Positions 8,772-64,000 of a DNA stretch of 64,000 nt are shown here, in pieces. Source of the DNA: Alphaproteobacteria bacterium (GTDB lineage: Bacteria > Pseudomonadota > Alphaproteobacteria > UBA6615); the NCBI GenBank assembly GCA_021774575.1, contig JAJFIX010000031.1:278264-342263 (forward strand), written 5' to 3'. How positions within the stretch are numbered: position 1 is the stretch's first letter; each line of letters begins with the position of its first letter. The notes below the pieces were generated by a model. It saw only the letters and a list, made by a program, of their open reading frames with translations, ran no database searches and was not told the DNA's origin. The position numbers were made by a program, and so were the translations under genes.

Positions 8772-10883
8772 TTATAGACCTGCCAACACTGCCAGCAATA
8801 GCAAGGCGACGATATTGGTGATCTTGATCATCGGGTTTACCGCCGGCCCCGCCGTGTCCTTATAGGGGTCGCCAACGGTGTCGCCAGTTACCGCAGCCTT
8901 ATGCGCCTCGGAGCCTTTACCACCATGGTTGCCGTCCTCAATGTATTTCTTGGCATTATCCCAGGCGCCGCCACCAGCGGTCATGGAGATCGCGACAAAA
9001 AGCCCGGTCACAATAACACCGAGCAGCATCGCGCCAACGGTGGAAAACGCCGCAGACTTGCCAGCAATGCCCCACATGACAAAGAACACAACAATTGGTG
9101 CCAAAACCGGCAGCAAGGAGGGCACGATCATTTCTTTAATCGCCGCCTTGGTCAAAAGATCGACCGCCCGGCTATAGTCGGGTTTGCCCGTCCCTTCCAT
9201 GATACCAGGGATTTCCTTGAACTGGCGACGGACCTCAACGACCACCGAGCCCGCAGCACGCCCAACAGCCGTCATGCTCAACGCACTGAACAGGAATGGC
9301 AGCAGGCCCCCCAGCAAAAGGCCGATGACCACATAAGGATTGGTCAGCGAGAAGTTAAGCTCAACCCCGGCAAAGAATGGATAAGTTCCGCTGTCGGCGA
9401 TAAAGAAATCCAGATCCGACGTATAGGCCGCAAACAGTACAAGTGCACCGAGACCGGCCGAACCGATCGCGTACCCCTTGGTTACAGCTTTGGTCGTATT
9501 GCCGACCGCATCAAGGGCATCGGTGGTTTTACGCACGGCTTCATCCAGCTCAGCCATCTCGGCAATGCCGCCGGCATTATCGGTCACCGGACCGTAAGCG
9601 TCGAGGGCGACAACCATCCCGGCCAAGGCCAGCATGGCCGTTACCGCAATAGCGATGCCGAACAATCCGGCCAACGCGTAAGTCACGCCAATCGCAATCA
9701 CGATTATTAGCGCCGGAATAGCTGTTGCTTCCATTGAAACAGCGAGGCCCTGAATGACGTTTGTACCGTGTCCCGTCTCCGAGGCCTTAGCAATGGAGCG
9801 AACCGGCCGATACTCGGTACCGGTATAAAATTCAGTCACCCAGATCAGTAATCCGGTCACCACCAAGCCGACGGTTGCGGAAAGCAACAGCGACATGCCG
9901 GTGAAGGTTTTGCCATCGACGGTAAAACTTTGATCGAAGCCGATTAACCAATGTGTGACCCCAGCAATTGCGATCAACGACAAAACGGCCGTGACGACAA
10001 AGCCTTTATAGAGCGCCCCCATGATATTTTGGCTGGCGCCCAAACGGACAAAAAATGTGCCGATAATTGACGTCACAATGCAAACGCCGCCAATCGCGAG
10101 GGGATAAAGCATCAGCGATTCTAAGATCGGCGAACCGACAAAGAAAATCGAGGCCAGCACCATCGTCGCAACAATCGTCACCGCATAGGTTTCAAACAAA
10201 TCGGCGGCCATACCGGCGCAATCACCAACATTATCGCCAACATTATCGGCAATAACCGCCGGGTTACGCGGGTCATCCTCGGGGATACCGACTTCCACCT
10301 TACCGACAAGGTCGGCACCAACATCGGCGCCCTTGGTGAAAATACCGCCGCCGAGGCGGGCAAAAATGGAAATGAGCGAAGCGCCGAAGCCAAGAGCAAC
10401 CAGCGCGTCAATCATCTCGCGCCCATCAACACCCATAGACAACAGCGAAGCGTAATACCCAGCAACTGCCAGCAGCGCGAGCCCGGCCACCAACATGCCG
10501 GTAACCGCGCCGGCCCGAAAGGCAACAGCCAGTCCTTGGGCCAAGCCGGTCCGTGCAGCCTCGGTCGTCCGGACATTGGCTCGCACCGAGATATTCATGC
10601 CGATATAACCAGCCGCGCCTGAAAGAATGGCACCGATCAAGAAACCAAGCCCTTCACGCCACCCCAGCAAAAGTAAAATGGCGACGAATATGACAGCCCC
10701 GACAATAGAAATGGTGCGGTATTGCCGATTGAGGTAAGCGGCAGCGCCTTCTTGCACCGCGCGCGATATCTCTTGCATCTTTTCGCTGCCGGCGCTGGCC
10801 GACAAGACGGAGGACGAGGCCCAAGCGCCATATACAAGCGCCAGTACACCGCAGCCTAAGGCCAACCAAAGAGCTTCAGTCAT
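8772..10883 (-). CDS. hppA: Membrane-bound H+-translocating pyrophosphatase, K+-independent type
   Basis: Integral membrane enzyme of 703 residues that hydrolyses pyrophosphate and pumps protons across the inner membrane, with about 16 membrane segments. Substrate-binding motifs are visible: [39 protein letters not shown], and near the C-terminus [15 protein letters not shown]. The sequence GNTTKA carries Lys at about residue 465. In this family Lys at that position marks K+-independent pumps, whereas Ala marks K+-dependent ones. It could supply proton-motive force from the PPi released by biosynthesis. The gene is transcribed alone from a likely promoter at 10938-10966, 187 bases downstream of thiL. 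Confidence 0.97.
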
Positions 10884-61610: not shown

Positions 61611-62252
61611 TCAACTCCGACTGGCTATAAGACGCAGGCCCGCGAATGCAAAGAAGGTGCCAAGAACGCCTTGTATCGCGCGCCGAGACTTTCCGTAGAC
61701 ACGCACCATCACAGGGGTCGAGAAGGCAACGGCGTAAAGCATATGGATCGCGACAGACAAAACAAAAGTTCCGGCCACGATAGCCGCTCCAACCCAGGCT
61801 GGGGCACCGTCGCTCAATCCTAGCGAGATAATTGCAATCCACGCCAATGCCGCCTTCGGGTTTGTCATCTGAATTATGTATCCGCGCTTCAAATAGCCGA
61901 ATGGAGACCGCTTACCCCCTGCCAACTCTTTCGCTTCGATGTCGTATTCGGACACAACCGATTTGAAAGACTTGTAGGCCAACCACAGAAGGTAGGCACC
62001 GCCGATGACCTTGATTGCCAGCAGTGCGGACGCATAAATCGATAGGAGCGCCGAGAGGCCGGCGACGGTGAGAACCGCCCAGGTGAATGATCCAGTCGCG
62101 ACGCCGAGAGCGAGCGCCACGCCTGAAGACCGCCCGACGCTCATGGACGTGCCGAGCACAGCAAGTATGTTGGGACCCGGGCTGGCAATAGCTAGGAGGA
62201 AGGCGGAATATGCGAGTAAAATACCGGGCAAATACATAGCGAAATCTTGCAT
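61611..62252 (-). CDS. LysE family translocator
   Basis: Inner-membrane exporter of 213 residues with six predicted membrane segments. The N-terminal signature LLAIASPGPNILAVLGTSMSVGR, in parts, and GGAYLLWLAYKSFKS are diagnostic of the LysE/RhtB family, which exports amino acids such as lysine, threonine or homoserine. ATG at 62252 follows GAGGAAGTTCGTC; the longer frame to 62288 is unlikely. It leads a two-gene unit with the ABM protein, divergent from the riboswitch-controlled EamA gene. Confidence 0.92.
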   Translation of the reverse strand: MQDFAMYLPGILLAYSAFLLAIASPGPNILAVLGTSMSVGRSSGVALALGVATGSFTWAVLTVAGLSALLSIYASALLAIKVIGGAYLLWLAYKSFKSVVSEYDIEAKELAGGKRSPFGYLKRGYIIQMTNPKAALAWIAIISLGLSDGAPAWVGAAIVAGTFVLSVAIHMLYAVAFSTPVMVRVYGKSRRAIQGVLGTFFAFAGLRLIASRS

Positions 62253-62338
62253 GACGAACTTCCTCTGTGCAAATAAATGTTCATGCATTGTTCCATGCGT
62301 TCAATGCGGAGGCAACCCTCCGAAAGAATATCAATTTT

Positions 62339-62383: not shown

Positions 62384-62479
62384 TTTAAAACGGCCAAGTC
62401 GTCAGATTTCGATTTAGCGTGCTGCTCCACCTTTTACAGCCACATCATGTATGCTATTTTCTTTTTTACCTATCCATGT

Positions 62480-62620
62480 GCGGCTAGGGTTCCGTCGCTT
62501 TGCGAGCTGGACCGAGCGCCGTTATGAGCCGTGTACGGCAGACACCCGAGGATGAAAAACCCAGAGGGAGTGGAAAGGGCGTGATGGAGCACGCCCTCAC
62601 TCCAACTCGTAAGGTTTATC
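62480..62620 (+). promoter_or_regulatory. ykkC-class riboswitch (guanidine-I type) and leader of the EamA gene
   Basis: The conserved blocks of ykkC RNA occur in order: GGCTAGGGTTCCG (62482-62494), a short hairpin TCGC-TTT-GCGA, CTGGACCGAGCG (62507-62518), a GCCGT/ACGGC stem, ACAC (62532-62535), and GAGGATGAAAAACCC with AGAGGGAG (62538-62570). ykkC class I binds free guanidine and controls its export or breakdown. After the aptamer comes a strong hairpin (GGAGTG...CACTCC enclosing AGGGCGTG...CACGCCCT, about 62567-62603), but no T-run, then a ribosome site TAAGG and the ATG at 62621. Subtypes of this RNA recognise ppGpp or PRPP instead; the exporter context favours guanidine. Confidence 0.85.
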
Positions 62621-63478
62621 ATGACGTCTCTCGGATTTGCTCTCGTTCTCGCCGCCGCATTTTGCCACGCAACATGGAACTTCTTCGTCAAACGCATCAA
62701 CGGCGGACCAGAGCTTGTTTGGCTGTTCTCGGTAATGTCGGTCCTGATATATCTTCCGGTCGCAATCTACATTCTCGCGACGAAACAACCGGCATTTGGT
62801 ATCTGGGAAATCATATTTATCGGCGGCAGTGCGATGTTGCATCTGGGGTATTTCCTACTTTTACAAAAAGGCTATCGGAAGGGCGACTTGTCCTTGGTCT
62901 ATCCGACCGCTCGCGCGACAGGCCCATTTTTGTCAACCTGTTTTGCCGTTGTTTTTCTTGGTGAGGCTATGACTGCTCAAATAGCGATCGGGGCCATTGT
63001 TGTCATTGTCGGCATTGTCGGCCTAACCGGCGAATCTCGGAGTGGTGCCACAAATATATCCGTATCCATCTTGTTTGGCATCGGAGCAGGTTTATTAATC
63101 GGCAGTTATACGGCGTGGGATGCCTATGCCGTATCTGCCTTGTCGATACCGCCACTTCTACTAGATTACGTATCGAGCGTAGGACGGTCCTTCCTGCTTG
63201 CTCCAATCGCAATGAAACGCATCGAAATGGTCAAAAGTCAGTGGCATGAACATCGAGCAGGCGTCATCGTCATCGCCATCTTCAACCCTCTCGCCTACAT
63301 TCTTGTCCTTTACGCATTGACCTTTACGCCCGTTATGTACGTTGCTCCAACCCGTGAGGTGAGCGTTCTTCTGACGGTTCTCATGGGAAGCATCTTGCTG
63401 GGCGAAGGCAAATTGAAACAGCGATTGGTGTGGGCATCAGTCATTCTTGTCGGCGTTGCACTACTGGCCGCAGCGTGA
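62621..63478 (+). CDS. EamA/DMT family transporter under riboswitch control
   Basis: Ten-segment inner-membrane transporter of 285 residues with two EamA repeats (about 1-135 and 145-285). The N-terminal FALVLAAAFCHATWNFFVKR and the second-repeat TREVSVLLTVLMGSILLGE are typical; LSLVYPTARATGPFLST fits the PhnA-like DMT branch. The gene follows a ykkC-class riboswitch directly. Known guanidine exporters under such switches are mostly small SMR proteins, so this larger relative would be a candidate guanidine or guanidinium-compound exporter. TAAGG lies 8 bases before the ATG, so the start is firm. Confidence 0.92.
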   Translation: MTSLGFALVLAAAFCHATWNFFVKRINGGPELVWLFSVMSVLIYLPVAIYILATKQPAFGIWEIIFIGGSAMLHLGYFLLLQKGYRKGDLSLVYPTARATGPFLSTCFAVVFLGEAMTAQIAIGAIVVIVGIVGLTGESRSGATNISVSILFGIGAGLLIGSYTAWDAYAVSALSIPPLLLDYVSSVGRSFLLAPIAMKRIEMVKSQWHEHRAGVIVIAIFNPLAYILVLYALTFTPVMYVAPTREVSVLLTVLMGSILLGEGKLKQRLVWASVILVGVALLAAA

Positions 63479-63798: not shown

Positions 63799-64000
63799 TC
63801 AGCGGCTGACGAGCAAGCGAACCCCCAATGCACCCAGAATCACCGCGGCGGTACGGTCGATATAGACCTTTGCTTTGAGGTATCCATTGCTTGCGGATTG
63901 CGTGCTCATACCGAAAGCCAGTGCGGTGTAGAAAAGCATCTCAATAAATAGGTGGTTCAGCACGACAACGACATTATCGATCAAGGTCATGTTCTCGGGG
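63799..64000 (-). CDS. LysE family translocator, C-terminal part (5' end outside window)
   Basis: The reading frame is open to the window edge and encodes the last 67 or so residues of a LysE/RhtB-type exporter. VVVVLNHLFIEMLFYTALAFGMS is a membrane segment, and KAKVYIDRTAAVILGALGVRLLVSR is the conserved C-terminal signature (compare the usual RAKRWLDRxAGxxLGxLGLRLL). Most of the gene lies beyond base 64000. It is the second LysE-type gene in 2.5 kb. Confidence 0.85.
   Translation of the reverse strand, partial: PENMTLIDNVVVVLNHLFIEMLFYTALAFGMSTQSASNGYLKAKVYIDRTAAVILGALGVRLLVSR

Follow-up and report, generated by a model that had tools for sequence, protein, structure and literature searches.

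Positions 62473-62620 of the window (the whole 64,000-nucleotide stretch of DNA that was analysed) very likely encode a subtype-2 ykkC riboswitch, best filed under subtype 2d, and most likely one that works as a translational ON switch for an exporter; we are less sure that its ligand is a small anion. Subtype 2d is an orphan class with EamA (phn_DUF6) and TauE transporters as targets, and according to a 2020 review it was the only ykkC branch whose ligand had yet to be solved (PMC7266159). No solved 2d ligand was found in the later literature by a search that lay largely outside subscription journals. The window RNA is an additional member of this known orphan class and brings new evidence on its architecture. 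An earlier note, made from the sequence alone, had proposed that EamA as the sole target would mark a less studied class of guanidine transporter; EamA is indeed the only evident target here, but the association is not new, as EamA and TauE were already named for 2d (PMC7266159).

Aptamer architecture and gene layout

The same note had read five ykkC blocks in order ahead of an EamA gene, with the RNA ending about 50 bases before the gene's start, and both observations were borne out. The blocks span 87 bases at 62484-62570 (+), namely CTAGGGTTCCG (62484-62494, the 5' side of P1a/P1b), CTGGACCGAG (62507-62516), ACAC (62542-62545), GGATGAAAAACCC (62550-62562), and GGGAG (62566-62570), all on the + strand, and stop 50 bases short of the ATG at 62621. 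The window holds a single copy of the spaced pattern CTAGGGTTCCG/CCRAGYG/AGACACC, and none of 100 dinucleotide shuffles contains it. A pattern scan over 84,980 species genomes returned 43 loci, and the structure was assessed on an alignment (A1) of 43 sequences, window included.

Across A1, the helices P0, P1, P1a, P1b, P2, P3, and P4 are paired in 93% of cells, a value that drops to 29-43% when the register is slid by 1-3 columns, and 19 of the 30 pairs show changes on both sides (0/500 shuffles were as good). P0, formed by UCCAU (62473-62477, +) and GUGGA (62570-62574, +), is 92% paired over the 43 sequences with both-sided changes in four of its five pairs, and P1, formed by CGGC (62481-62484, +) and GCCG (62518-62521, +), is 98% paired with such changes in three of four. 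These are joined on the + strand by the P1b hairpin and P1a 3' strand with CUGGACC (62492-62513), the J1/2 linker UUAUGA (62522-62527), which is largely lacking in guanidine-I, the P2 hairpin GCCGUGUACGGC (62528-62539; 94.5% paired), and the distal part of P3 with its conserved A-rich loop, GG AUGAAAAAC CC (62550-62562), both pairs of which covary (GC and AU). The conserved downstream helix P4, GGGCGUG/CACGCCC (62577-62596, +), is 91% paired and has both-sided changes in six of seven pairs. The RNAs share a four-way-junction aptamer (P0, P1/P1a/P1b, P2, P3) followed by a P4 hairpin, conserved together with the EamA clade. A covariance model (R2) from which the window and its five closest relatives had been left out gave the window 129.7 bits (E 1.3e-31), compared to at most 47.5 bits for the guanidine-I RNAs tested and 32-47 bits for PRPP-/ppGpp-type RNAs. 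Diverged variants (L079, L086, L101, L104, L147, and L148) scored 41-46 bits, so the model does not separate classes below about 60 bits and key residues must be read directly.

Upstream, two promoter-like hexamers, TTTACA and TATTTT, spaced by 16 bases and with a TG ahead of the latter (62433-62460, +), would place the transcript start no more than about 10 bases from the aptamer, though such a pair is weak on its own because the region holds two such sites against 1.4 expected. Downstream, a Shine-Dalgarno AAGG (62611-62614, +) stands 6 bases ahead of the start codon of an EamA/DMT transporter of 285 aa with ten predicted membrane helices (62621-63478, +; PF00892). LysE-type translocator genes flank the riboswitch-EamA unit on both sides, one at 61611-62288 (-) with a PF01810 match and one at 63802-64000 (-), LysE-like by eye and continuing past the window end; together with EamA, they therefore make three exporter-like genes in a row.

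Subtype marker and the guanidine-I label

At gathering scores, Rfam calls no family anywhere in the window. With a relaxed threshold, the sole convincing family for the leader was RF00442 (Guanidine-I) at 33.8 bits (E 1.1e-4 for the stretch), which is not called at Rfam's own threshold since the gathering score is 63. This match is the single one of its type in the genome; the leader also gave weak hits to CRISPR-DR17, SorY, sroH, and Vax2os1_3, which were taken as chance. A comparison of the guanidine-I, ppGpp, and PRPP models, which the earlier note had proposed as a test, cannot decide the class, because RF00442 is also the only family to match the ykkC part of PRPP- and ppGpp-type control RNAs (L105, L109, L111, L068, and L098, at 50.7-60.6 bits as Guanidine-I). 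The PRPP-type controls L105, L109, and L111 have a Purine (guanine) aptamer directly upstream, and tandem guanine and PRPP aptamers have been described for PRPP riboswitches (PMC5912903); of the ppGpp-type controls, L068 precedes citramalate synthase and L098 an ilvE-like aminotransferase, named by eye. L103, subtype-2 by sequence, reaches 63.6 bits, above the guanidine-I gathering score. As RF00442 also matches these controls and L103, a guanidine-I match is no evidence of guanidine sensing.

The same model, run over 385 genomes of the same bacterial class, recovered 29 guanidine-I matches at 62-98 bits and one weaker match (L029), along with three weak look-alikes, which were the window, L030, and L031. 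The guanidine-I matches read CCGAGAG ... CACGG ... CCCGGGAG with few exceptions (e.g., L021, with G at position 46), and the strong ones keep the pocket residues almost without exception. The look-alikes read CCRAGCG ... AGACACC ... CYAGRGGG, and an EamA gene comes next in 3/3. In the window, guanidine-I residues A46, G72, G73, and G88 are replaced by C62517, C62546, C62547, and A62563, respectively, and G89 is kept as G62564. We take G72 and G73 to line the guanidine site of guanidine-I. Numbering was counted from A68 along ACACGG...CCCGGGAG, which puts G72-G73 after CAC and G88-G89 exactly at the S-turn, as named in PMC6031431. The C at 62517 (+) is the ykkC subtype 2 marker (PMC6031431), a pyrimidine at position 46 being the published criterion for ruling out guanidine-I (PMC6031431, PMC5912903).

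These residues bear directly on whether the RNA is a guanidine-I riboswitch that has diverged but remains responsive to guanidinium, with a guanidinium-exporting EamA under its control, in line with the earlier note's guanidine-I label. RF00442 is the sole Rfam family convincingly matched, EamA and SMR guanidinium exporters share a superfamily, and a guanidine-like ligand has been guessed for 2d (PMC5912903), all of which favour that reading; however, it is very improbable, given that A46, G72, G73, and G88, kept with rare exceptions in guanidine-I RNAs of the same class, are replaced, that RF00442 matches PRPP-/ppGpp-type RNAs too, and that no guanidine carboxylase, guanidinase, or SMR gene was seen to recur beside the RNA when neighbouring ORFs were clustered. 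What stands of that identification is a genuine ykkC-fold riboswitch with EamA as its only evident target; the "guanidine-I type" label falls with the four replaced residues and the score of 33.8 bits, and a guanidine-I assignment of the window RNA is not supported.

With the published equivalences A68 = A74, A46 = C49, and G89 = G96 between guanidine-I and PRPP aptamers (PMC6031431), the last C of ACACC (62542-62546, +) corresponds to G72 of guanidine-I and C78 of the PRPP aptamer. In the latter, contacts to the 5'-phosphate and ribose are made by G48, C77, C78, and a metal partly held by C49 (PMC6031431), and the window RNA keeps the equivalents of G48/C49/C77/C78. The S-turn positions G88-G89 read A-G in the window (62563-62564, +); over the 43 sequences, the first of these is A in 39, and the G73 position is T or C. 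The invariance of C46 and ACACC is partly built in because the search pattern included them, and five RNAs found by the covariance model alone (L076, L079, L086, L147, and L148) still keep C46 and CACC.

CCGAGCG, ACACC, and the P0 helix are common to the PRPP-/ppGpp-type RNAs L105, L109, L111, L068, and L098, as would be expected of a ppGpp (2a), PRPP (2b), or NDP (2c) riboswitch on an unusual gene. That explanation is nevertheless quite unlikely: A at PRPP G95 (39/43), a J1/2 of 5-6 nt, and AG before ACACC set the class apart, its targets are always transporters and never purine or branched-chain amino-acid genes, and the class model gives the window 130 bits against 32-47 for the PRPP/ppGpp controls. 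As to the individual subtypes, PRPP riboswitches are marked by G at 95-96, P0, and a purine-synthesis gene, often in tandem with a guanine aptamer; the window has A-G at 95-96 and no Purine family match, unlike the PRPP-type controls L105, L109, and L111, which do show one. The ppGpp-type RNAs are characterized by having no G at 96 and by an amino-acid synthesis gene as target; the window has G62564 there, and its target is a transporter.

Relatives, target genes, and the EamA transporter

The pattern loci are mostly from Alphaproteobacteria, with one from Saccharospirillum, two each from Anaerolineae, cyanobacteria, and Micromonosporaceae, and one from Desulfosporosinus; the last (L068), before citramalate synthase, was set aside from the relatives as a ppGpp-type control. 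The 42 close relatives span Alphaproteobacteria, a gammaproteobacterium, Chloroflexota, Cyanobacteria, and Micromonosporaceae. In 38 of them the next gene is an EamA homologue (42-75% identity), its start nearly always about 70 nt after ACACC, and the first EamA codons are visible at the contig end in two more (L032 and L057), such that 40/42 precede the same EamA clade; the other two, both from Micromonosporaceae (L054 and L065), have an MFS transporter downstream. Cohaesibacter marisflavi and Marivita hallyeonensis are cultured bacteria that carry the RNA-EamA pair. Variant RNAs precede MFS efflux-type carriers in Chloroflexota (L101 and L104) and a second, TIGR00950-like EamA type in Anaerolineae (L096 and L097) and Actinomycetota (L147), and these DMT and MFS targets are all efflux-like. 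L096 and L097 are second RNA copies or variants in genomes that also hold the phn_DUF6-like pair. When 329 neighbouring ORFs were clustered to see whether genes in the same operon hinted at the ligand, only EamA recurred across unrelated genomes.

Several loci were seen alongside these. Five pattern matches came from viral contigs, of which only L142 fits the class model; this contig (IMGVR_UViG_3300026534_000121), listed as viral, has the RNA at 9543-9690 (-; 134 bits) together with its EamA gene, and may represent a mobile copy or else a bacterial contig with the wrong label. The RNA at L053 is rearranged 3' of ACACC, having lost the P0 3' strand and P4, with the EamA start about 245 bases further off, and is possibly a broken copy. 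Three Chloroflexota loci (L103, L106, and L107) have subtype-2 ykkC RNAs (CCGAGCG, ACACC) before a gene that is histidine-phosphatase-like by eye, and three others (L105, L109, and L111) have tandem guanine and PRPP-type aptamers before purine-synthesis-looking genes; 2b examples have been reported throughout Firmicutes (PMC5912903).

Filing under 2d follows the published practice of sorting first by position 46 and next by the downstream gene, rather than an overlay on the 2d consensus: the RNA has the ykkC fold with a pyrimidine at 46, and EamA lies downstream, though it scores below the TIGR03340 cut-off. One could instead suppose a distinct ykkC subtype ("2e") whose ligand is unlike that of the published 2d, the latter being another EamA/TauE-associated group. 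Extended P1/P3 conservation is listed for 2a-2c and not for 2d (PMC5912903), P0 covaries here, no TauE target was seen, and the EamA proteins fall far under the TIGR03340 cut-off. We still regard a separate subtype as unlikely, as the sorting rule yields 2d and the RNA searches, over about 1,300 genomes, gave no other EamA-associated ykkC variant without these features.

The window protein is an EamA member (PF00892, E 4.9e-19), and its description as ten-segment in the earlier note agrees with an AlphaFold model that predicts ten membrane helices (mean pLDDT 88). Its nearest curated model is TIGR03340 phn_DUF6, at 108 bits against a cut-off of 288. Family members at E <= 1e-25 occur in 107/337 genomes of the class, and the RNA was absent beside the 30 high-scoring members that were fetched, the best-scoring TIGR03340 members being among those without it. 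In a tree, the RNA-linked EamA proteins cluster together, joined by a sister clade (L079 and L086) that carries a variant RNA, and the 30 members without the RNA lie across a branch with 100/100 support. The genome that holds the window also encodes a TIGR03340-like EamA paralogue (G000:C42:369812-370633), which scores above the window's EamA; genome-wide searches placed no RNA beside this paralogue. A link to phosphonates, suggested by the name phn_DUF6, was dropped as unsupported: PhnJ, the C-P lyase marker, is found in 11/38 genomes with the RNA versus 31/191 of the class, and its absence from the genome of the window shows that the RNA does not require it. No sequence relative of the window EamA was found among solved structures; fold matches (DMT) were LicB, TPT, CMP-sialic-acid transporter, and YddG (TM-score 0.69-0.83 for the best, 8-16% identity), with substrates that range over choline, triose phosphate, nucleotide sugars, and amino acids. 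Because the nearest solved fold is that of the choline importer LicB, the protein leaves the charge of the substrate undecided.

Proposed switching mechanism and ligand, and likeness to known systems

A predicted fold and complementarity tests place a putative switching segment at 62598-62617 (+). In the modelled free fold of the window, 62567-62572 would pair with CACUCC (62598-62603), breaking P0, and AAACC of P3 (62557-62561) would pair with GGUUU (62613-62617), which overlaps the Shine-Dalgarno. ACACCUU and the P3 strand that follows it show complementarity to the sequence surrounding the Shine-Dalgarno. Across relatives, the P3 strand pairs better with the ribosome-site segment of the same leader than with segments swapped in from others (mean -11.6 vs -9.1 kcal/mol; permutation p 5e-5), as does the P0 3' strand with its own post-P4 segment (p 1.5e-4), both uncorrected for shared ancestry. 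The P3 complementarity is perfect over 13 bases in L062, and the window's own direct duplex is weak (-6.7 kcal/mol). Forcing the aptamer raised the modelled mean Shine-Dalgarno accessibility across relatives from 0.23 to 0.28, a small gain (p 0.048). Transcription termination was rejected as the platform, with no terminator-like site or hairpin between aptamer and gene.

We suggest that, without ligand, the P0 3' strand would extend the P4 hairpin and the ACACC/P3 strand (AAACC in the window) would pair with the ribosome-binding site; ligand binding would close P0 and P3, freeing that site so that the transporter can be made. A translational ON switch setting the level of an exporter is the most likely reading of these models, based on the accessibility and complementarity results and on the fact that ON switching is common to the guanidine-I, ppGpp, and PRPP classes (PMC6031431, PMC5912903). 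The transporter would presumably export the sensed compound.

For the ligand, a small anion, probably phosphorylated, is preferred over guanidinium because the phosphate-site residues are kept and P0 is present, although we hold this less firmly. Subtype 2d has been called the one most like guanidine-I, with a small charged toxic, guanidine-like ligand guessed (PMC5912903); the P0 helix and phosphate-site residues suggest a direction away from that guess. Tentatively, and with some doubt, 2d may sense a small phosphorylated or polyanionic metabolite that is expelled in several bacterial phyla by efflux carriers of separate origin (MFS and two clades of EamA), using P0 and a phosphate site shared with PRPP/ppGpp aptamers, with the ACACC strand of its own pocket reused as an anti-Shine-Dalgarno. 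The 43-sequence alignment, the covarying P0, and the kept phosphate-site residues narrow the ligand to a short ranked list, and the 2d ligand, once solved, would at the same time reveal what a family of EamA exporters transports.

Among known systems, LicB, TPT, YddG, and nucleotide-sugar transporters have the predicted ten-helix DMT fold in common with the window EamA, from which a substrate is not transferable. Guanidine-I RNAs (RF00442) share the P1/P1a/P1b/P2/P3 core, CTAGGGTTCCG, GRCCGAG, and the A-rich P3 loop docking element, whereas the window RNA has A46/G72/G73/G88 replaced, a J1/2 linker of 5-6 nt, and P0 and P4. PRPP (2b) and ppGpp (2a) RNAs are alike in the pyrimidine at 46, ACACC, the P0 closing helix, and the G48/C49/C77/C78 equivalents, but the class described here differs in A at G95, a longer J1/2, the 3' strand CYAGRGGGRAU, and targets that are transporters only. 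Compared to 2d, for which published text descriptions mention neither a covarying P0 nor MFS targets, the class here has both, and the window RNA shares with 2d the subtype-2 marker at 46 and a sole EamA target nearest phn_DUF6.
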